From assembly GCA_029785235.1 (NCBI GenBank), contig JAFMAA010000013.1:1-23451 (forward strand): a stretch of 23,451 bases of DNA, written 5' to 3'. A program made the translations under genes and the position numbers. Source of the DNA: Nitrososphaerota archaeon. GTDB lineage: Archaea; Thermoproteota; Nitrososphaeria; Nitrososphaerales; UBA183. Below are positions 2,560 through 23,097 of this stretch, piece by piece; position 1 is the stretch's first letter; every line of letters begins with the position of its first letter. The notes beneath the pieces were generated by a model. That model was not told the origin of the DNA and did no database searches. It saw only the letters and a program-made list of their open reading frames with translations.

Positions 2560-2589
2560 ATGACTGGAGGATGGATGTTTCCCCCATGA
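2560..2589 (+). CDS. Nine-codon leader ORF overlapping the next gene
   Basis: An ATG at 2560 opens a nine-codon frame (MTGGWMFPP) whose TGA overlaps an ATG at 2586 in the ATGA arrangement used elsewhere for translational coupling. A weak AT-rich element (GATAAG, 2533-2538) lies about 25 nt upstream, so the mini-ORF could be leaderless. The same architecture recurs at 10489-10521 and perhaps at 2962-2979. It could equally be chance. Confidence 0.25.
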   Translation: MTGGWMFPP

Positions 2590-2816
2590 GCCGCTTCTCC
2601 TTCATCTCCGGCGCGGCGGTCGGCTTCTTCTTTGCGCTCGTCCTCCTCGGCTGGTGGGGGTTCTCCGAGGGGCTCGGCGTCTCCGGGGGCGTCTACGTCT
2701 GGCCTTTTCAAATTCTGACCACGGACGTGTGGGTGACGGGAGACATCTTCCTGGCGCTGACGGCCTTCCTGACGGGGCTCGCCGTGGTTCTGGCTTCGAG
2801 GATGGACAGGGCATGA
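2586..2816 (+). CDS. Small membrane protein
   Basis: This 76-residue protein from ATG 2586 (MSRFSFISG) has hydrophobic segments at about residues 6-25 and 50-70, separated by a short polar region. An in-frame ATG at 2571 would add five residues. That start sits directly against a GGAGG (2566-2570) with no usable spacing, whereas 2586 forms an ATGA overlap with the small frame at 2560, so 2586 is preferred. No family is recognised. Its stop overlaps the start of the following zinc-finger gene. Confidence 0.6.
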   Translation: MSRFSFISGAAVGFFFALVLLGWWGFSEGLGVSGGVYVWPFQILTTDVWVTGDIFLALTAFLTGLAVVLASRMDRA

Positions 2817-2923
2817 GCCACGGGTGCATGTGTGGGGCGGAGTTCTTTTCTGAGGTCTCCTATCGTCTGCACGTCCGGCGCAAGCATGGCTCGGTGTCCT
2901 ATGCGGCATGGAGCCTCCTATGA
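2813..2923 (+). CDS. C2H2-type single zinc-finger microprotein
   Basis: This 36-residue protein starts at an ATG overlapping the upstream stop (ATGA). It consists almost entirely of a C2H2-like finger: CMCGAEFF, then SYRLHVRRKH, giving two Cys, an aromatic, a Leu and two His in the usual order, although the Cys pair has only one residue between it. Single C2H2 fingers are well known in archaeal viruses and plasmids as DNA- or protein-binding regulators. A regulatory role here is inference. It ends just before the promoter of the tatA/fibre unit. Confidence 0.65.
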   Translation: MSHGCMCGAEFFSEVSYRLHVRRKHGSVSYAAWSLL

Positions 2924-2928
2924 GAGCC

Positions 2929-2934
2929 TTTAAA
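2929..2934 (+). promoter_or_regulatory. TATA box for the tatA/fibre unit
   Basis: TTTAAA in the context GAGAGCCTTTAAATCC matches the CTTTAAA boxes elsewhere in the window. The usual 30-34 nt spacing predicts transcription starting at about 2959-2963, where a GTG (2962) lies. That GTG frame closes after five codons (MSAQR), its TAG overlapping the ATA at 2976 of the tatA frame. Confidence 0.7.
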
Positions 2935-2972
2935 TCCTCAATCCGCTTCCATCAGCGCGAGGTGTCCGCACA

Positions 2973-3125
2973 ACGATAGGCAGCATCTCGGACTGGGCTA
3001 TACTCGCCGTGATTGTCGTGGTCTTGTTCTTCGGGGCCAAGAAGATTCCAGAGTTGGCTCGCTCATTGGGCTTGGCGAGGCGGGAGTTTGACCAAGGGCG
3101 CAAAGAGGAGGACAAGACGACGTGA
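2973..3125 (+). CDS. tatA: TatA/E-type twin-arginine translocase subunit
   Basis: This is a protein of about 50 residues with the full TatA signature: an N-terminus reading MIGSISDW if ACG is the start, one transmembrane segment (WAILAVIVVVLF), the FFGAKKIPELARSLG hinge and amphipathic helix with the conserved Phe-Gly and Pro-Glu-Leu, and a short charged tail. TatA multimers form the pore that carries folded proteins with twin-arginine signals across the membrane. Most TatA proteins have a longer acidic tail, so this is a minimal version. No ATG, GTG or TTG exists in frame. ACG 2973 lies 9 nt after GAGGT (2959-2963); ATA 2976 overlaps a TAG; a missing base after GTG 2962 is the third option. 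Its stop overlaps the next start (GTGA), and that next protein carries a Tat signal. Confidence 0.85.
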   Translation, partial: TIGSISDWAILAVIVVVLFFGAKKIPELARSLGLARREFDQGRKEEDKTT

Positions 3126-4051
3126 GCGTCCGCAGCCCTTCGAGACGAAAAACCCTGAAGTATGTGATGATGGCTGTTCTGGGGCTCGGCGCAGGCGTCG
3201 CTCTGGGCGAGGTCACAGGCGCGGACCGATTAGTCCACGCCGCGTCTCCGTCTGGTCCCGACCCCGTCTTTTCAGGCACGGGCATACAGTTCCCGTCGCT
3301 GACCTCTGACCCGTCACAGCTCGTCGGCAACATGTGGTATCGCTCCGACCTGACGGCGATGAAGTATTCGGATGGGACGAACTCGCACGAACTGGCGGCT
3401 CTCGATTTGGCCCTGACATGGACGGGGGTGCAGACGTTCAACGGGGGGATAGTGTTCGACGCCGCCGGGTCGATAGCGGGGACTTCGACGTTCATTGAGG
3501 CGGACGGGGTGGCAGGGGACTTGGTACTAAATGCAGGAGGGACGAATCGCATATACCTGGGCTTGGGTGGCACAACTTATTACCGATTCGACAGCGGAAA
3601 TTTCATCCCAGTAACAGATTCCTCAGTGGGCATTGGCTATCCAAGCTTTAGGTTCGCCCAAGCCATCGCCAACGTCCACAGTGTCTATCACGCCGCCGGC
3701 GCATCCTTCCCCACGGCGCAGTTGGCAGACGGGGTTCTGAATCTGGGAACCGGCACTGCGGCGACCGACACTCAGATAAACAGGGCGGCGGCTGGAGTTG
3801 TTGGTCTCCCAGGTATTAAGACAGCGGCCGGAGGGACAACTCCCACCACCGTCACGCTCACTTCAGGAACGGCCTACACCGCCTCTACAACCCAGAACAT
3901 GATAGTCACCATCGGAGGCGGCACGGTCACAGCCATAGCCATAAACGGCACCACAACAGGGCTCATATCGGGAGTTTTCTACTTGAAGGCCAATGATACG
4001 ATAACTGTTACGTTCACGACCGCGCCGACCGCCTTGCAGATGGTGGCTTAG
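3122..4051 (+). CDS. Twin-arginine-signal fibre-like structural protein
   Basis: This 309-residue protein starts at GTG overlapping the tatA stop. Residues 7-13 (SRRKTLK) match the twin-arginine consensus S-R-R-x-F-L-K except for the Phe. A hydrophobic stretch (about 14-34) and a VHA cleavage site near residue 40 follow. The mature part is Gly/Thr/Ser-rich and resembles phage and viral tail-fibre or head-fibre proteins: MWYRSDLTAMKYSDG, a middle beta-rich region, and a C-terminal TVTLTSGTAY...ANDTITVTF module typical of trimeric fibres. I infer a receptor-binding or surface fibre that folds in the cytoplasm and is exported by the Tat route using the adjacent TatA. The sequence does not prove that it is in the virion. 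Confidence 0.8.
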   Translation: MSVRSPSRRKTLKYVMMAVLGLGAGVALGEVTGADRLVHAASPSGPDPVFSGTGIQFPSLTSDPSQLVGNMWYRSDLTAMKYSDGTNSHELAALDLALTWTGVQTFNGGIVFDAAGSIAGTSTFIEADGVAGDLVLNAGGTNRIYLGLGGTTYYRFDSGNFIPVTDSSVGIGYPSFRFAQAIANVHSVYHAAGASFPTAQLADGVLNLGTGTAATDTQINRAAAGVVGLPGIKTAAGGTTPTTVTLTSGTAYTASTTQNMIVTIGGGTVTAIAINGTTTGLISGVFYLKANDTITVTFTTAPTALQMVA

Positions 4052-4102
4052 ACGACCCTCGTAAAATTCCCCGTTCGAAAGGGCTACTCCGCCAAGGTCT
4101 CC

Positions 4103-4579
4103 GTGCTCGCCAAGAAGTCGAACCTGAAAGACCTCTCAGACTGGGAGCGCCAGCGCATACGCCTCCTCCTCCAGGGGCCTCCTAACGGGAGCGGCCTGAT
4201 AGCCTCCCTCAAGGCATGGGAAGACCTCCACGAGATCACCGACCCGCGCACCGTCACCAAGGAGCACCCTGAAGGCAAGAAAATAGACTTCGAGTTTGAC
4301 GAAGCGAAAGCTCTCCCCCTCCATAACGGAAAGCCCAAGCTGACGAAGGAACAGGAACTGAGGGCCCTCGACCTGAAGGACAGGACGCTATACTGGCTGT
4401 CCCGGGGGACGGCGTTCAACAGGGAAGTCACAAAAGCTTTCAACAGCGTGAAAGGGTTGCCTCAGTTCATGGAGGGGCCTGAGACGAAGGCAAAGACCGT
4501 CGCGGATTTCCTCTCGACTTACCTCCAGAGGGAGGTGTGGCGCTCCGACCTCCAGCAGGAATACGGGGAGATAGATTGA
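4103..4579 (+). CDS. Soluble protein of unknown function
   Basis: This 158-residue protein (GTG start) is highly charged, mainly helical, and has no signal peptide or membrane segment. The GTG is preceded by AGGT (4096-4099 region). The frame is also open back to the stop of the upstream gene, and an ACG directly after that TAG (4052) would give an N-terminus of MTLVKFPVRKGYSAK; see the findings on near-cognate starts. It sits between the fibre protein and a second large surface protein, so it could be a cytoplasmic chaperone or assembly factor, but nothing in the sequence shows that. Its TGA lies just before GTG 4581. Confidence 0.7.
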   Translation: MLAKKSNLKDLSDWERQRIRLLLQGPPNGSGLIASLKAWEDLHEITDPRTVTKEHPEGKKIDFEFDEAKALPLHNGKPKLTKEQELRALDLKDRTLYWLSRGTAFNREVTKAFNSVKGLPQFMEGPETKAKTVADFLSTYLQREVWRSDLQQEYGEID

Positions 4580-4580
4580 T

Positions 4581-5972
4581 GTGGCCCTTCGACATCGCCG
4601 CCTTCTTGTCACCGCGACCCTGATACTGCTCCTCGTGACAGCCGTCGCCTACGCCTTCACCGTCAACGTCACCATGACGACATCCTACTCCTACAAGTCT
4701 AACTACTGGGGGACATACGTGAAATGGGGCTCGACCTTCTACGCGACCGAGGTGGAATATAACGTCGGCGCCGACCAGCACATCAATTTCACTTCCATCG
4801 CTTTCGGCTCGGCCTCCAACCCTACGCACACCTTCGGGGCGGTCATGGACGGGGGCAACATCACCCTCTATGACGCGAACCCTCCCTCAGCGAACGCCGT
4901 CCTCTATTCTCTCTCCTGCTCTGTCTCTCCCTGCTATCCCTTCTACTACTTCCCTAAGACCACTTCGGCCGTCTCCGAGGTTGACATCTACACGGGAGGT
5001 TCGACGCAGGTAGTCCGCACCTTCGTCACCACACAGGCCGCCTTTGCCGCAGGGCCCCCGGGCACCGTCCTCCTTAACGTCACGGGAGGATACGCAGAGG
5101 CTAAGGTCGCCTACAATCCGCCGACCACGGTCACATGGATAACAGGCTCCAACCCCACCATCACCGTCTCCTACTCCATCTCCGGCGGGGGGACGCCCAC
5201 GGCCCCGACGTTCACCTACTACAGCGGCGGGACGAAGCTCACGGCCACGGTCACGACGACTCCTACACCCTACACCGTGGACTATGGCTCGGCATGGAGC
5301 ATCACCCCTAACCCGCTGACGGGCTCAGGCACCACGGAGAGGTGGGCCACCAATGGAATCACGTCAGGAACAGCGACAACCAGCATCACCGTTTCGCCAG
5401 TCTACTACAACCAGTATGGCCCCAACGTAGCTTTCACCCTGACCGATTCTTACACCCTCAAGAACGCGCCCATCTTCACCTACGTCCTCTACGGGCAGAC
5501 GGCCACGGCCACCATGAGCAAGACCCCCACGCAGATATGGATAGACTCCGGCTCTACGTGGAGCGCACAGAGCCCCTTCGTCACCAACCCCGACCTGACC
5601 ACCTACTACGGCAACGTCACGTCCGGCACGGTTTCAGGGGCCACCCACATCACGGAGGCATACACCACAGCCAAGTCCTGCGTCGGCTCGACCCCGCTCA
5701 TCTCTCTTGAGCATGGGTGCGTCGTCCCCGCCATCCTAGGCACATGGGGGAACTTCTTCGGACAGCAGATATGGCTCTCCTTCGTCCTCCTGGGGGTGAA
5801 CGTCGCCATCTTCAACAAGACCCAGAGCATAATGATAGCGCTGTCCCTCCTCATGGTGGTGGGGGCGGTCTTCGGGTTCGCGTTCCCTGCCGCGTTCGCG
5901 TCGATAGCAGAGGCGTTAGCCGCGATAGCCCTGGCGGGGATAGTCACTAAAGCGGTCCTAATGATCCGTTAG
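4581..5972 (+). CDS. Large secreted, membrane-anchored surface protein with internal repeat
   Basis: This 463-residue protein starts at GTG 4581. Its signal peptide spans about residues 1-25 (RHRRLLV, hydrophobic core, AYA). The ectodomain is rich in Thr, Ser, Tyr and Pro. Two copies of a module of about 50 residues occur near residues 210-257 (FTYYSGG ... YTVDYGSAWS) and 298-350 (FTYVLYG ... IWIDSGSTWS). The C-terminus has three hydrophobic segments at about 397-412, 417-436 and 442-461. The architecture parallels the protein at 6-1793 without obvious overall sequence identity. It is probably an envelope spike or adhesin exported by Sec, in contrast to the neighbouring Tat substrate. No named family is recognised. 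Confidence 0.85.
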   Translation: MALRHRRLLVTATLILLLVTAVAYAFTVNVTMTTSYSYKSNYWGTYVKWGSTFYATEVEYNVGADQHINFTSIAFGSASNPTHTFGAVMDGGNITLYDANPPSANAVLYSLSCSVSPCYPFYYFPKTTSAVSEVDIYTGGSTQVVRTFVTTQAAFAAGPPGTVLLNVTGGYAEAKVAYNPPTTVTWITGSNPTITVSYSISGGGTPTAPTFTYYSGGTKLTATVTTTPTPYTVDYGSAWSITPNPLTGSGTTERWATNGITSGTATTSITVSPVYYNQYGPNVAFTLTDSYTLKNAPIFTYVLYGQTATATMSKTPTQIWIDSGSTWSAQSPFVTNPDLTTYYGNVTSGTVSGATHITEAYTTAKSCVGSTPLISLEHGCVVPAILGTWGNFFGQQIWLSFVLLGVNVAIFNKTQSIMIALSLLMVVGAVFGFAFPAAFASIAEALAAIALAGIVTKAVLMIR

Positions 5973-6665: not shown

Positions 6666-6696
6666 GGAAGAGCCCTGCCTCCCTTTTTCCCAAGCC

Positions 6697-6702
6697 TTTA
6701 AA
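6697..6702 (+). promoter_or_regulatory. TATA box for the 6727 unit
   Basis: TTTAAA in CAAGCCTTTAAAAGC lies exactly 30 nt upstream of GTG 6727, the same motif and spacing as at 23092. The transcript is predicted to be leaderless. Confidence 0.75.
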
Positions 6703-6726: not shown

Positions 6727-6840
6727 GTGAGCCGAGAACACCGGCACCATTGTCGTTCCTGCGGGCGCCCTCACGGCCATGAGTCGCACGCCCATCGAAG
6801 GCACCACTGCCCCCACTGCGGCGCGAAGTGTGACTGTTGA
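6727..6840 (+). CDS. Zinc-ribbon-like microprotein, leaderless
   Basis: This 37-residue, His- and Cys-rich protein has two CxxC pairs, HHCRSCGR and HHCPHCGAK, and ends in CDC. That gives two knuckles of a zinc ribbon separated by a His-rich loop. The start is GTG at the predicted transcription start. It is the first gene of a unit continuing through 7406. Such ribbons bind nucleic acid or protein; the partner is unknown. It would be missed by a 60-residue cutoff. Confidence 0.6.
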   Translation: MSREHRHHCRSCGRPHGHESHAHRRHHCPHCGAKCDC

Positions 6841-10964: not shown

Positions 10965-11358
10965 ATGCGAACCATCAACGAGTCCATGGCAAGGGTCAGA
11001 CTGGCCCTCGCCGTGGCTCTCTCCAACATCAAGGCCGTCTGGGCCACCAACGCCTCCCTCCCCGCGAAGCTGTTCTGGACCGTAAGGTCTGGGGCGGTCA
11101 TAATCGCGGCGGTCGTGGCGCTCGGTGTCCTCACCATCGTCATCCCCATCGTCTACCTCATCTCGGTGTCCGTGGGCAACACCCTCCCGGCAGGCGGTCT
11201 GTCGGCGGGTCAGTCCTCGACGCTGCAGACGCTGGTAGCGAACGGCGGATCGGCGCTGGTCCTGACCACGACTGCTGAGACAGTCGGCAACGACCTCAAG
11301 AGTGACGGGGGCAGGAATCATCCTGCTTGCTGTCTACCTGTTCACGGGCTTCAGCTAA
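10965..11358 (+). CDS. Two-helix membrane protein, apparent +1 frameshift; candidate major virion protein
   Basis: The frame from ATG 10965 encodes a basic N-terminus, a strong hydrophobic segment (about residues 44-70) and a Gly/Ser/Thr-rich region. In that frame the sequence after about 11300 loses protein-like character and runs to 11468, inside a terminator hairpin. Skipping one base near 11301 instead continues into VTGAGIILLAVYLFTGFS, a second hydrophobic helix, and stops at 11358. The restored product of about 130 residues (helix, about 40 polar residues, helix) resembles small major capsid or membrane proteins of spindle-shaped and pleomorphic archaeal viruses in architecture only. 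A sequencing indel, a mutation or programmed shifting are all possible. A strong promoter region and terminator suggest high expression. Confidence 0.55.
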
Positions 11359-12573: not shown

Positions 12574-12839
12574 GCCTCCGAAAGCACATCCACAACAGCA
12601 TCATGGTCGTCGCCGTCGCCCTCCCCAACCTCGCCATCACCCTCTCGACCGTCACTATCCTCGCCGTCGTCTTCCACTGGTCAGGCTGGCTTGCCACGCT
12701 CGCCTACCTGATAGGCCAGTTCTTCAGCGTCCAATGGAGCGCCCTCTTCAACCGGGGGGCGAAGACGAGTATGACTTTCAGGAGCTGGACGTATCGCTTC
12801 TCGGAGAAGGAGCCTTCGGCCTCTTCATCAGCCCCATGA
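12570..12839 (+). CDS. Small membrane protein convergent with the integrase
   Basis: This 89-residue protein starts in an ATGA overlap. Two hydrophobic segments (about residues 10-33 and 36-55) are followed by a polar Ser-rich tail. The last 62 nt overlap the 3' end of the minus-strand integrase gene. Part of the tail may therefore be a by-product of the overlap. Function is unknown. Confidence 0.55.
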   Translation: MSLRKHIHNSIMVVAVALPNLAITLSTVTILAVVFHWSGWLATLAYLIGQFFSVQWSALFNRGAKTSMTFRSWTYRFSEKEPSASSSAP

Positions 12840-13494
12840 GTATCCTGTGCCCCTCCGTCCCCCTTTGATACCCCGCGAACTGCTCCTCCTTGGCATGCTT
12901 AGTGATCGTCATCCCCACCTGCGCAGGCACCTTCATCTGGCTCAGCTTGTTTATCAATGCGTAGCGGAGCGAGTGCGAGTTCATCCCCATCTTGGAGATT
13001 AGAAACACCTTATAGGCGCTCAGGGTCGTGTGCTCGGTAAGGAGGCTCTGAAGCGGCTCCCTATCGTCGTCTGACAGTTCTTCGGGGATCAACACTTCTC
13101 TGGGGATGTCTATCAGCTCCTGAGTCAATGGATGGCTGTTCGCCTCGGAGTGCTTCTTAGCCTCCGCAACCGATTCTTCCGACCGCAGGCTCCAGGAACG
13201 AGAAGGTGCGCACATGTGGCACACGAGCATGGAGCCTCGCTTCCGCGTCCTGACTTGGTTGTTTCTCAGCCCGTGCTTCAGCCACGAGAGATACCCATCC
13301 CACGCTTCTGAGGCCCTGGCCCCGTTGACGAGCTGCACCAGCGCCGCCCCCAGGTAGACCACAGCCCTCGACTGGTAGCCTTCCTGCCCCTGGAACCTTG
13401 CCTTCTCGGCCTCGAAAGCATCCGTCAGGGACTTGCGCGTGGCGTCGAAGTCCAGCCCTCTGTCCCAGCCCCTTCGAGGCTCTAATTCGTCCAA
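12778..13494 (-). CDS. int: Tyrosine recombinase (archaeal-type integrase), catalytic domain only
   Basis: This 238-residue protein has the catalytic set of tyrosine recombinases in order: Arg I in NGARASEA (R60), a basic beta-hairpin (RTRKRG, 82-87), H174-x2-R177 in MNSHSLRYALINKL, a KH pair in ITKHAKEE (199-200), and the nucleophile in FAGYQRG (Y209). These enzymes integrate or excise DNA by strand exchange through a 3'-phosphotyrosine. Only about 45 residues precede the catalytic domain, so the usual N-terminal core-binding domain is missing or reduced. A Ser/Pro-rich tail follows. It starts at TTG 13494. No att site is identifiable without the flanking chromosome. Confidence 0.85.
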   Translation of the reverse strand: MDELEPRRGWDRGLDFDATRKSLTDAFEAEKARFQGQEGYQSRAVVYLGAALVQLVNGARASEAWDGYLSWLKHGLRNNQVRTRKRGSMLVCHMCAPSRSWSLRSEESVAEAKKHSEANSHPLTQELIDIPREVLIPEELSDDDREPLQSLLTEHTTLSAYKVFLISKMGMNSHSLRYALINKLSQMKVPAQVGMTITKHAKEEQFAGYQRGTEGHRILMGLMKRPKAPSPRSDTSSS

Positions 13495-14175: not shown

Positions 14176-14492
14176 CCCAAGAAGGACAGAGCGCCACTTC
14201 AGCCAAGCCAGCGCCGAAGGGACTCATCGCCTTACGAGCAAGAGGATTGACAAAGCGACTGGATGAACAGGCTTGCATCAGAGAGGGGTTTACTGAAAAG
14301 ACATTCTATCTTCTCAAAGATGCACTTGAAACACTTGCTGACGAAGCCTCACCAGCCGCAGAAAGGACAGCCATCATCGCGGAGATACGCCGAAGGTCAA
14401 GCCTGCACACGACAAAGGACGGCGATACCCATTATCATGTTGACGATTCACTTTTGGATGAACTCGACGCACAGGAGAGAGCAGGAGCATGA
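14172..14492 (+). CDS. Small soluble protein, mosaic relative of 19396-20308
   Basis: This 106-residue protein (ATGA overlap at start, next gene overlaps its stop) is helical and charged. A central region, LTKRLDEQACIREGFTEK, could be a helix-turn-helix-like segment but this is unproven. At DNA level it shares four exact blocks of 19-30 nt with the 19428-20277 region (encoding TQEGQS, SAKPAP, AAERTA and ELDAQERAGA) in the same order, with unrelated sequence between the blocks. It is therefore a mosaic partner of the genes at 19396 and 19859. Function is unknown. Confidence 0.65.
   Translation: MTQEGQSATSAKPAPKGLIALRARGLTKRLDEQACIREGFTEKTFYLLKDALETLADEASPAAERTAIIAEIRRRSSLHTTKDGDTHYHVDDSLLDELDAQERAGA
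14174..14192 (+). repeat. Mosaic block A (second copy 19428-19446)
   Basis: GACCCAAGAAGGACAGAGC is identical at 14174-14192 and 19428-19446, in the same reading frame. The first copy begins inside the start codon of its gene (ATGACC), where the second copy reads ACGACC. Confidence 0.8.
14197..14215 (+). repeat. Mosaic block B (second copy 19869-19887)
   Basis: CTTCAGCCAAGCCAGCGCC is identical at both places and encodes the SAKPAP motif in each. Blocks A and B are 23 nt apart in the first locus but 441 nt apart in the second. Confidence 0.8.
14354..14372 (+). repeat. Mosaic block C (second copy 20089-20107)
   Basis: AGCCGCAGAAAGGACAGCC is identical at both places and encodes AAERTA in both frames. 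The sequence on either side is unrelated. Confidence 0.8.
14459..14488 (+). repeat. Mosaic block D (second copy 20248-20277)
   Basis: A 30-nt exact repeat starting TGAACTCGACGCACAGGAGA and ending GCAGGAGC encodes ELDAQERAG at the C-termini of both proteins. It contains GGAGAG and AGGAG, so it also supplies the ribosome binding site for the following gene in the first copy. Confidence 0.85.
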
Positions 14493-15893: not shown

Positions 15894-16373
15894 GTGTCCT
15901 CCCCTGAAGAGCCTCCTTCCGAGCGTTACGCCGAGACAGGCCGCTGGTGGATATTCCAATGGTATAACGAGATGCTCCAAGGGCTGAGGGGAGCTTACCA
16001 AGCGCTTCAGGGATTGAAGTGGGGAGGGCCTTCAGCGTGGGAGCTTGCTACCAGGGCCGCGTCCGAGCTTGCATACGTCGAGGGCTCCATACAGGGCCTC
16101 ATGGGCTATCTCACCGCCGAAGACCAGAAGAAGGTAAAAGGGTTCGATGAAGCGATGGAGATGGTAGAGACCGAAGCGTCGGAGTCCAGCGAAGGCAACT
16201 ATAGGCAGTTCCTGGAGACCCGGACCGCTCTGGAGAAACGCTATCATGCGCTCCTGGTGGTGGCTGATTCCCTCCGTGCGATAGCCGCCGAGCGCAAATG
16301 GTGGGAGCTGAAATGGAGGCCGGAGGAGCGGCGCCACTCGACGAGCTTCACAAAGAAGGATGCGACCCAATGA
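15894..16373 (+). CDS. Helical soluble protein of unknown function
   Basis: This 159-residue protein (GTG start 9 nt after the upstream stop) is rich in Glu, Ala, Leu and Trp and predicted to be almost all helix, with likely coiled-coil stretches in the second half (about residues 75-130). Tryptophan pairs (GRWWIFQW, RKWWELKW) near both ends could contact membrane or partner proteins. There is no signal peptide. It is in the same operon as the ATPase. No family is recognised. Confidence 0.65.
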   Translation: MSSPEEPPSERYAETGRWWIFQWYNEMLQGLRGAYQALQGLKWGGPSAWELATRAASELAYVEGSIQGLMGYLTAEDQKKVKGFDEAMEMVETEASESSEGNYRQFLETRTALEKRYHALLVVADSLRAIAAERKWWELKWRPEERRHSTSFTKKDATQ

Positions 16374-16549
16374 TTACACCAGATTTCGGCTTGTTCCTAT
16401 GGCTCCTTCTTGCATGGTGGGGCGTAACCGGGGTAACATACATCATAGCTGGGGCGTTAAGGCTCGAAAGAGACGCCCACTATGGCCCTTTCGACGTCTT
16501 CTGGGGAATCGGACTTTTACTCATATTGCTATGGGTGATAGTCGCTTAA
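16370..16549 (+). CDS. Two-span membrane microprotein
   Basis: This 59-residue protein has an ATGA overlap at the start and shares one base with the ATPase start at its end (TAATG). Hydrophobic segments at about residues 7-27 and 42-58 are joined by a polar loop (RLERDAHYGPF). Its tight coupling to the ATPase suggests it could be the ATPase's membrane partner. This is inference from position. Confidence 0.6.
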   Translation: MITPDFGLFLWLLLAWWGVTGVTYIIAGALRLERDAHYGPFDVFWGIGLLLILLWVIVA

Positions 16550-17397
16550 TGACTGAAGAACGTGCCGCCGAGAAAGACCGCTTCACCCAGGCCTGCGAAG
16601 ACGCCATCTCCGAGAACCAGCTTGTCATCTGCGCCGTCACGTCAGGCACTCAGGCCAGCTTCCCGTCAGATGCCGTGCCCTACGGCGCAGGAAAGTCGAC
16701 CCTCGCCTTTCATCTCGCCTACCACCTCAACCACTTCGACCCCGTGCAGAAGCGATACTCTGACGTGGCGATAGATCCCGATGACGAGGCTGCGTGGGCC
16801 ACGACCAAGCGCAACGCGTGGTATTACCCCTCGAAGATACTCAGGGGCATAGACGCCGCATCCGCTGAAGGGAAGATAATCAACGCGGGAGTCTGGGACG
16901 ACGTGCAGTTCACAGCCCCCAAGAAGGCGGGCTTGCCGAAGGCGCTGGAGCGGCTCGTCGGGGTCTTGACTACGGAGCGCCCTATCCTGAGGGTGTTGAT
17001 AATGACCTTCCCCAGCATGGATGACATCTCCAATGTTGTCGCTCGTCTGATACAGTTCGAGCTGATAGTCAACAGGCGCGGCTACTACGAAGTCCAGCAG
17101 ATAATGAAGCGTAAGAACTACAAGAACCCCCGCAAGGACTTCATCCACCTCGGCTATGTCTCCGGTTTAGACCCCGTGGGAAGGCCTCCTGATTTCGACC
17201 CCTTGCCGGCGCACATGCAGACGTGGTATGACCTTTGGAGAGAAGAGCAGAAGCGTCCCAGCCGCAAGAGCGCCATCAAGGAACTGGAGCGCTATGAAAA
17301 CGTCATGCCGAGGGAGGAGCAGGACAAGCTGACTTCGAGCGCCGCATCCGCGTTGGCCTTCAAGCGCTGGGGGGATAAGAGTGTCAAACAAGGTTGA
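16549..17397 (+). CDS. P-loop ATPase, possible virion assembly or DNA-translocation motor
   Basis: This 282-residue protein from ATG 16549 has a Walker A motif at residues 45-51 (PYGAGKST) and a Walker B-like strand ending in two Asp (KIINAGVWDDVQ, D117 and D118). A later strand reads ILRVLIMTFPSMDD, with a polar sensor-like Thr. It binds and probably hydrolyses ATP. Length and the closing Asp-Asp resemble small viral packaging or FtsK/HerA-type ATPases of archaeal viruses, but I cannot exclude a DnaA-like or other AAA/RecA-type role. It lies among membrane-protein genes, which favours an assembly role. The frame extends upstream to 16360, but 16549 fits the gene spacing. Confidence 0.75.
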   Translation: MTEERAAEKDRFTQACEDAISENQLVICAVTSGTQASFPSDAVPYGAGKSTLAFHLAYHLNHFDPVQKRYSDVAIDPDDEAAWATTKRNAWYYPSKILRGIDAASAEGKIINAGVWDDVQFTAPKKAGLPKALERLVGVLTTERPILRVLIMTFPSMDDISNVVARLIQFELIVNRRGYYEVQQIMKRKNYKNPRKDFIHLGYVSGLDPVGRPPDFDPLPAHMQTWYDLWREEQKRPSRKSAIKELERYENVMPREEQDKLTSSAASALAFKRWGDKSVKQG

Positions 17398-19862: not shown

Positions 19863-20308
19863 GCACCGCTTCAGCCAAGCCAGCGCCCCAAATGATTTTG
19901 AGGCGCGTAGCCCTATGGGACAGACAAGAGGTCGAGGCGGGAGTCTGCGCCGAATGTTCGCTGTCCCGGCTTCTCACTTTTTACATGGCTTACGATTGGG
20001 AGCCGGGCGTCTCAAGGGAATTGCTTGCGCTCTGCGATTCATGCGGGCTTGATCTGTTAACAAGGTCAAAGGCCCTCGAATCCCAACTAGCCGCAGAAAG
20101 GACAGCCCTCGAAAAAGTTCGTGCCCTAAGAGAACAGCTTGACAACTGGGTAAGACTGTTCGAGACTGCAAATCCGGGTTCTCCTGCTCTGCGATATACG
20201 AGACAGGCATGGAAGGTTGTCAGAGATGAAATAGATTTCCGATTCCCTGAACTCGACGCACAGGAGAGAGCAGGAGCGAAGGGCGCCTCGGAACAGGGGG
20301 GAGCATAA
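19859..20308 (+). CDS. Zinc-ribbon and coiled-coil protein, mosaic relative of 14172-14492
   Basis: This 149-residue protein starts at TTG 19859, which overlaps the upstream TGA (TTGA); ATG 19844 is the alternative. It has two CxxC pairs (GVCAECSL and ALCDSCGL, about 24 residues apart), then a coiled-coil-like helix containing AAERTALEKV, and ends with ELDAQERAGAKGASEQGGA. Three exact DNA blocks (B, C, D) are shared with the 14172 gene, which lacks the CxxC pairs. The zinc region thus appears to be an inserted or exchanged module. Confidence 0.6.
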   Translation: MSTASAKPAPQMILRRVALWDRQEVEAGVCAECSLSRLLTFYMAYDWEPGVSRELLALCDSCGLDLLTRSKALESQLAAERTALEKVRALREQLDNWVRLFETANPGSPALRYTRQAWKVVRDEIDFRFPELDAQERAGAKGASEQGGA

Positions 20309-22594: not shown

Positions 22595-22656
22595 GCTTGC
22601 TCTTCTTTTGGCTTCTACTTTGCGCCTTCAGGGAGTGGACGGAGGAGATGCGATGA
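22591..22656 (+). CDS. 21-residue hydrophobic peptide frame
   Basis: ATG 22591 overlaps the upstream stop and the frame encodes a short hydrophobic peptide (MSLLFFWLLLCAFREW ...) whose stop overlaps the next ATG. GGAGGAG inside its end serves as ribosome binding site for the 22653 gene. It may be a leader rather than a functional protein. Confidence 0.35.
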   Translation: MSLLFFWLLLCAFREWTEEMR

Positions 22657-23096
22657 GCTTCCCCCTCGGCTTCCCTCTCTTCCTGGCAGGCTTCTGTCTG
22701 ACTGGCGGCATGGTCGCGTTCTCCGAAGCCAAGACCTCTATGGTGCGAGATGTGCTGTGGCTCCCCGCCCTCCTCGGTGCGTTCTACTTCTTCGTCTCTG
22801 CTGGTTCGTTCCGGCTCCTGTTCACCTCCGTCCTGCTCGACCTCGCCATCACAGGGCTCGCAAGCCTCGTCCTGTATCTCTGGTCCCGAAAGGTAGGAGG
22901 TGCAGACCTCATCGCCATGCTCGTCTTCGGCCTCTGGCCTATCCTCCTGGTGGACTCGCTCGTCTATGCCTCCCTAGCGCTGTTCGCCGTCAACGTCTTT
23001 AAGGGCCGGAGATACATCCCATCCTTGAAGCTCGCGGGGTGGCTCGGCCTCATGGTCCTTCCCGTGGGACTCTCGTTCCTCCTCCCAAGCCTTTAA
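22653..23096 (+). CDS. Prepilin-peptidase-like membrane protein (A24/FlaK-PibD type) with Asp-to-Glu change
   Basis: This 147-residue protein has about five or six transmembrane segments. RKVGGADLIAML (D85) matches the archaeal GGAD version of the GxGD motif of type IV prepilin and prearchaellin peptidases. In those enzymes the first catalytic Asp lies 8 residues before the Asp of a VPD-like motif. Here the aligned pair is E25 and D33 (FSEAKTSMVRDVLW), so Glu replaces the catalytic Asp. The enzyme family cleaves class III signal peptides at the membrane face. This copy may be impaired, altered, or a decoy. The start is ATG 22653 with GGAGGAG upstream. Confidence 0.6.
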   Translation: MSFPLGFPLFLAGFCLTGGMVAFSEAKTSMVRDVLWLPALLGAFYFFVSAGSFRLLFTSVLLDLAITGLASLVLYLWSRKVGGADLIAMLVFGLWPILLVDSLVYASLALFAVNVFKGRRYIPSLKLAGWLGLMVLPVGLSFLLPSL

Positions 23097-23097
23097 A
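23092..23097 (+). promoter_or_regulatory. TATA box for the 23122 gene
   Basis: TTTAAA in CAAGCCTTTAAAAGC overlaps the stop of the upstream gene and lies exactly 30 nt before GTG 23122. The sequence from CAAGCC through AAAGC is identical to the promoter at 6691-6705. Confidence 0.75.

Follow-up and report, generated by a model that had tools for sequence, protein, structure and literature searches.

What would a mobile genetic element of an archaeon gain from a tatA gene of its own, placed so that it overlaps a gene for a protein with a twin-arginine (Tat) signal? The question is raised by a 23,451-nt stretch of DNA (here called the window), which is probably a mobile and virus-like element whose host is an archaeon in the class Nitrososphaeria.

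A short tatA overlaps the gene for a Tat-type, fibre-like protein

The initial annotation had taken a small frame of the window for TatA, and the profile searches bear this out. Translated from 2940-3125, the frame scores 47.7 bits against PF02416 (cut-off 21) and 56.5 bits against TIGR01411 (cut-off 53.9), and it matches phrog_29532 (E 9.1e-7). By these matches, the product of 2973-3125 is a member of the TatA family. It has the short N-terminal helix, the FG hinge and the amphipathic helix in common with the TatA/TatE family (PF02416, TIGR01411), but differs in being only 49-50 aa long, in lacking the long hydrophilic tail and an adjoining tatC, in its non-standard start and in being borne by an element. 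The polar residue before the helix, the Phe-Gly hinge and the amphipathic helix, the last read from the sequence, are all present in the element TatA, and D6, F19, G20, K22, K23, P25, E26 and L27 are invariant across eight element TatAs. As annotated, tatA and the following gene overlap by 4 nt (GTGA 3122-3125), because the TatA stop TGA lies at 3123-3125 and the next gene begins with GTG 3122 (Table 1).

The N-terminus of the second protein, MSVRSPSRRKTLKYVMMAVLGLGAGVALGEV, has a twin-arginine signal according to a motif rule of our own, which asks for an S/T-R-R-x-F-L-K-like motif and a moderately hydrophobic, uncharged stretch (mean hydropathy here 1.89); signal cleavage near VHA-A is likely. 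The SRRKTLK signal named initially thus fits our rule, but not the curated signal profiles, of which only TIGR02811 responds, at 13.5 bits against a cut-off of 48.45. Because of this low score we label the protein as Tat-type and not as a proven Tat substrate. The strict form of the rule picks out two window ORFs of at least 50 aa, 3122-4051 and 4581-5972. Since RR precedes an uncharged stretch in the latter as well, the claim that the Tat route is specific to the first protein is not secure.

The first protein had also been described as a fibre, which we retain as fibre-like. PHROG matches to tail spikes are weak (E 2.8e-4 and 7.5e-3), the phage tail spikes phrog_11182 and phrog_1171 giving short, weak matches to its C-terminus and middle, and the C-terminal module recurs in other modular, fibre-like proteins. 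Its structure models were poor (pLDDT 49 and 61.5), and fold searches with these models returned nothing at E<=0.001.

Table 1. Features of the window discussed in the text.
Feature	Position	Strand	Remarks
Small membrane protein upstream of tatA	2571..2816	+	72% over 54 aa to an ORF on contig G799:C23
Promoter-like BRE/TATA motif AGCCTTTAAA	2925..2934	+	one of three copies in the window
Shine-Dalgarno-like GAGGTG	2959..2964	+	8 nt before ACG 2973
Minimal tatA, 49-50 aa	2973..3125	+	begins at ACG 2973 (preferred) or else ATA 2976; ends with TGA 3123-3125
Shine-Dalgarno-like GAGGAGG of the fibre gene	3105..3111	+	inside tatA
Tat-signal fibre-like protein, 309 aa	3122..4051	+	GTG start; motif rule, relatives, weak PHROG matches
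Twin-arginine signal	3122..3247	+	SRRKTLK, 16-residue uncharged stretch; conserved in relatives
Next gene, 175 codons and stop	4052..4579	+	from ACG 4052; no known family
Secreted surface-like protein, 463 aa	4581..5972	+	relatives behind Tat fibre heads in L045 and L046
Integrase	12778..13494	-	phrog_9208, E 1.7e-14; evidence for a mobile element
ATPase-like ORF	16360..17397	+	phrog_5484, E 4.5e-5; weak match, DnaA-like viral replication proteins

Start codons and a promoter-like motif

The TatA frame holds no ATG, GTG or TTG before its transmembrane part, and an in-frame TAA lies at 2931. When the proteins were compared, the residue aligned with ACG 2973 was M in seven TatA relatives and T, as in the window, in one (P0030). 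The called start of P0030 is an M 17 residues upstream, and the remaining protein is intact. At the position of ACG 4052, in the gene behind the fibre gene, three relatives show M, again by comparison of proteins. Two genes 1.1 kb apart thus have ACG where their relatives have M (2973 and 4052). Shine-Dalgarno statistics over the whole window gave no general signal for ACG starts (ACG 11/222, ATG 14/246, mean 4.2%), so that we offer ACG initiation at 2973 and 4052 as possible and as a suggestion only. A GTG at 2962, ahead of tatA, begins a frame of 5 codons, and the stop of this frame overlaps ATA 2976.

This start bears on the possibility that tatA is a captured host gene that has no specific role, the host exporting the neighbouring protein unaided and tatA being a passenger or, in this copy, silent. 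That ACG and ATA are the only starts available in the window copy speaks for such a reading, whereas P0030 also lacks M at this position and has nevertheless kept the rest of its protein, which speaks against a silent gene.

Both genes had initially been placed under one promoter. AGCCTTTAAA is found at 2925-2934, 6693-6702 and 23088-23097, three copies against 0.01 expected, and none of 100 shuffles reached three; the copies at 6693 and 23088 are, however, non-independent, as both lie within a 43-base repeat. CTTTAAAT alone is within chance, one being present in 26 of 100 shuffles. GTG codons at 6727 and 23122 lie 30 nt after the start of TTTAAA in the respective copies of AGCCTTTAAA, which suggests leaderless genes at these two codons.

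Relatives of the two proteins among archaea

A protein search with TatA returned 14 sequences, of which one is the window's own, eight are close relatives (74-91% identity) and five are more remote. The search with the fibre-like protein gave 23, headed by that of the window. Across 11 aligned relatives of the latter the signal has RR in nine and KR in P0010, and P0015 as called begins after the signal. A longest contig of 8003 nt is reported both for P0026, a relative of TatA (90%), and for P0004, a relative of the fibre (76%), which suggests that they lie on one contig; relatives of ORF 4103 and of TatA had no longest-contig size in common.

TatA matches were found in 379 of 400 genomes from the class of a Nitrososphaeraceae genome (the five best at 77-80 bits over the full length, the next at 68), in 204 of 389 from the phylum of the euryarchaeal genome G002 (best 73 bits) and in 37 of 46 from the family of genome G172, nine of these at 77 bits or more. 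The five nearest chromosomal TatAs (L017-L021), from the candidate host lineage, are 68% identical to the window TatA over 47 aa. They are longer than the 49-50 aa of the window protein (109 aa in four, 114 aa in L021 as called), and in all five loci tatC, confirmed by Pfam, adjoins tatA, whereas no tatC accompanies the window gene. A scan of genome contigs gave 12 TatA loci, among them one beside tatC (L001, by Pfam) and one beside a TatC-like ORF (L011, by eye).

The fibre alignment matched none of 61 genomes from the order of G172 and three of 46 from its family. In two of these three genomes there are fibre heads that carry Tat-type signals, with RR in both L045 and L047 and with KR in L046, whose head matched no signal model; the third matches the middle of the fibre only (L048). 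No tatA was seen ahead of the heads in L045-L047. A relative of the 4581-5972 ORF follows the head in L046 and, after one intervening ORF, in L045; the latter locus also has a glycosyltransferase gene and the former an epimerase gene. Because of these heads, ORF relatives and enzyme genes, host-side surface proteins seem to share the fibre head and the Tat route. L047, from an archaeal genome of this family, also encodes at 1174-2889 a second Tat-signal surface-like protein (PF10518 18.0 bits, below the cut-off of 22.7).

With their glycosyltransferase and epimerase genes L045 and L046 resemble host surface loci, so the cargo of the window could itself be a cell-surface protein. The fibre-like protein would then have no place on a virion but would act on the surface of the infected or carrier cell, in superinfection exclusion, receptor masking or adhesion, and TatA would boost its export. 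The weak tail-spike matches and the recurrence of the C-terminal module in other modular proteins count against this, and we rate it slightly below an even chance.

tatA and Tat-signal genes are paired in viral contigs

A wider TatA alignment identified two IMG/VR contigs. In L093, tatA is followed by a 4-nt-overlapping ORF that begins MNRREFLGVAALGLSVIAF, and in L094 by a 44-nt-overlapping ORF that begins MSKKSTKMTRKDFLKRGGLATLVGM. An alignment of bacterial TatAs again found only these two among the viral contigs, while scans with the window fibre, the window TatA, the fibre alignment, the surface protein 6-1793 and the close TatA alignment found no relative there. We also scanned the DNA of viral contigs for a single version of the TatA hinge, in which FG is followed by P/A/S, by KK, by a further residue and by P. 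As the pattern covers this version only, the resulting 28 stretches are a partial sample of viral TatAs. Eighteen were dropped for a hydropathy below our limit, leaving ten with a hydrophobic stretch before the motif, and eight of the ten are full TatA frames (L093, L094, L100, L105, L109, L110, L113 and L118, the last counted without a Pfam run of its own, as its frame is identical to that of L105). With starts chosen by us, their sizes are 44, 45, 47, 55, 58, 60 and 60 aa. The other two were set aside: with 13.4 bits, L106 does not reach the cut-off of PF02416, and L104, a frame of 31 aa, narrowly passes (23.6 bits, cut-off 21) on its membrane part and has neither an amphipathic helix nor a Tat neighbour.

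Behind six of the eight viral tatA genes (six of nine if L104 is counted) the next ORF has a Tat-type signal, with strict RR in L093, L105, L118, L110 and L113 and relaxed RK in L094. In the same fetched contigs this was so for one of 361 other ORFs, 228 of which had a same-strand ORF starting in the same range. The contigs L105 and L118 have 888 identical bases in common and could represent a single virus; without L118, five of seven are paired. Common proteins or DNA further unite L093, L105, L110 and L118 in one phage group, so that the six paired contigs represent three groups, or three of five when groups are taken as the independent units. A binomial comparison with 19 of 1453 mechanical ORFs gives about 2e-5, a rough value in that this background includes the pairs themselves. 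Judged by these counts, the pairing of tatA with a Tat-signal gene is real, above chance and recurrent in unrelated viral contigs. The conserved tatA-fibre pairing for which the initial annotation had wanted related elements surveyed is thereby seen in part, since pairs recur, but the heads of L045-L047 lack a tatA, and L100 and L109 have a full tatA and no adjoining Tat cargo.

Terminase and head genes are present in L105 and a terminase gene in L094; L113 has a sub-threshold match to an SU10 adaptor (26.2 bits, cut-off 27). The phage cargos are unlike the window fibre, three of them being proteins of 61-82 aa with Pro-rich stretches. The cargo of L113 reaches 16.5 bits against TIGR01409, just below the cut-off of 16.7, and that of L110 matched no signal model. 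The 61-69 aa Tat-signal proteins of L105, L110 and L118 have a Pro-Thr-rich stretch and a C-terminal LLLLF.

Could the small TatA instead have been co-opted as a holin-like, membrane-weakening factor, the adjoining Tat signal being incidental? TatA and one holin family both consist of a short transmembrane and an amphipathic helix, and a similar membrane-weakening action is proposed in the accessible part of PMC9527704. The same text describes a similar helix layout for TpeE/BhlA-type holins and calls TpeE unrelated to TatA in sequence, whereas the element protein does match TatA. A CHAP endolysin ORF lies 1.2 kb from the tatA of L100, on the other strand; this contig, however, also has an ORF with a strict Tat motif 7.7 kb from tatA on the same strand. 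A holin-like role would leave unexplained the excess of Tat-type neighbours over the controls and the retention of TatA-typical residues, and we hold it to be very improbable. The tatA and the distant Tat-motif ORF of L100, the contig with the CHAP endolysin ORF, occupy 10995-11177 (-) and 2687-3256 (-).

Among phage records, tblastn with the fibre-like protein found none, and five TatA queries gave weak matches only (best E 5e-3). Five phage-filed TatA records were opened, a set that excludes three records from Salmonella, three more from Listeria, two that belong to one Faecalibacterium phage and a second one from Acinetobacter. All five resemble bacterial chromosome and were rejected: tatA and tatC stand together in L096, tatABC is annotated in L127, a TatB-like frame lies beside an Mrp-like ORF in L095, and ORFs that look TatC-like by eye follow tatA in L128 and L129. 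The phage-filed but chromosome-like stretches are MT837480.1, MT835995.1, CAKLQH020000005.1, OR849886.1 and OR848119.1.

Origin of the element TatA

In a FastTree phylogeny of 42 columns the eight element TatAs group together (support 0.958), whereas the phage TatAs are scattered in several places among bacterial TatAs, with L100 beside an archaeal TatA. Separate captures of tatA would be the simpler reading, in an alignment that is too short for firm claims. The tree also bears on the passenger reading introduced above. A single clade in which the protein has been kept, and the recurrence of the pairing in phages, argue against a passenger; the occurrence of unpaired Tat fibre heads argues for it. 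We consider a captured gene without a specific role unlikely.

A proposed export route

We lean towards the reading that an element-made minimal TatA and the host's TatC together export one cognate Tat-signal, fibre-like protein. Translation of tatA would be coupled to that of the twin-arginine-signal gene. The minimal TatA, a short transmembrane helix and an amphipathic helix with almost no tail, would join host TatC, which is presumably used because TatC had no match among the 20 ORFs of the window that were run against Pfam. The supply of TatA protomers would be raised locally for one cargo whose synthesis coincides with it in time and place, and the folded, probably multimeric fibre would be moved across the membrane to the cell surface or to a budding virion. 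Virions of tailed phages assemble in the cytoplasm, so that a Tat cargo of such a phage would end outside the assembly site. There the cargo would act off the virion, more likely at the surface of the infected cell; in the archaeal element either place is conceivable. Tailed phages such as L105, with its terminase and head gene, thus add to the case for an off-virion surface protein, and L113, where the second gene further on contains the fibre-like string WTGIQTF, detracts from it.

A Tat substrate gene beside a tatA of its own is familiar from a cellular operon, phoD-tatAd-tatCd of Bacillus subtilis, which includes tatC. The pairs described here have the juxtaposition in common with it, but comprise tatA only and lie on viral or element DNA. 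A host TatA already exists, which counts against a need for an element TatA.

In the accessible parts of two reviews, PMC13186574 and PMC9527704, what TatA is said to require is its membrane anchor, the amphipathic helix and a small number of further residues, whereas it can dispense with its hydrophilic tail; the features named as needed are a polar residue before the helix, Phe at the helix end and the amphipathic helix. The viral (44-60 aa) and window TatAs are about as long as this minimal unit. A broader reading would be that archaeal and bacterial viruses have acquired tatA several times over, cut it down to its two helices and linked it to a single cognate Tat-signal protein, as a dedicated export booster that works with host TatC and through which the infected cell or the virion comes to display a protein of the virus; for this we see the balance as even. 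That the same pairing occurs in unrelated contigs of bacterial viruses suggests that viruses supply assistance with the export of a protein of their own.

The initial annotation knew of no described virus-encoded TatA-substrate pair, and none was found in the open full-text literature as judged by titles and the beginnings of abstracts. Nor did the open literature, within a scope that mostly leaves out subscription papers, yield a virus-encoded part of a folded-protein exporter paired with its own cargo; TatA and twin-arginine are absent from the main text of PMC6563490 and of PMC11849493. If the pairs are read rightly, there are viruses for which a folded protein has to be outside the cytoplasm ahead of release. 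If they work as read, the viral TatAs would be natural examples of the shortest working TatA. The pairs also provide a sequence rule for finding cargos among unknown viral genes, namely that a short tatA ORF lies no more than a few bases from an ORF with an RR signal.

The window and its host

Integration and replication genes of mobile elements are present in the window (phrog_9208, phrog_5484), the ATPase-like ORF being without a Pfam match. Comparison of 20 window ORFs with PHROGs revealed no recognisable gene for a capsid or for packaging, and the window has neither exact terminal repeats of 10-200 nt nor Rfam families.

Because the DNA of window positions 1-19950 matches genomes of the family of G172 (10 of 46, with at most six candidates scored per genome), a host in or near this family appears likely. 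Several of these matches are the chromosomal tatA itself. Others lie on short contigs, including G149:C43 (84% over 382 bases) and G799:C23 (74% over 216 bases), the latter a resolvase-bearing contig of a related archaeal genome; P-loop-like ORFs on the matching short contigs were recognised by eye and have no Pfam ATPase match. ORF 14489 matched none of 61 genomes from the order of G172, and the ATPase at 16360 none of 46 genomes. In the accessible part of PMC11849493, three contigs are tied to proviruses of UBA183/Group I.1c/Gagatemarchaeaceae archaea. Prompted by this statement, and going by G+C, we name that group as the host, which is no more than a guess.

The window might also be a chromosomal island of the host and neither virus nor element. 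Its G+C (0.55-0.62) fits the candidate host genomes (0.58-0.61 in L017-L021), relatives of the fibre head and of the 4581-5972 ORF lie in host-family loci, and the lack of a recognised capsid or packaging gene is in line with such an origin. The integrase, the virus-type ATPase match and the similarity in DNA to short contigs, of which one bears a resolvase, speak instead for a mobile element, and we consider an island distinctly unlikely.

Two minor observations concern the remainder of the window. The membrane protein encoded at 22653-23096, which matched no profile, has a GGAD string that we take to recall prepilin peptidases. Positions 14459-14488 and 20248-20277 are 30 identical bases in two different ORFs, and both read LDAQERAGA.
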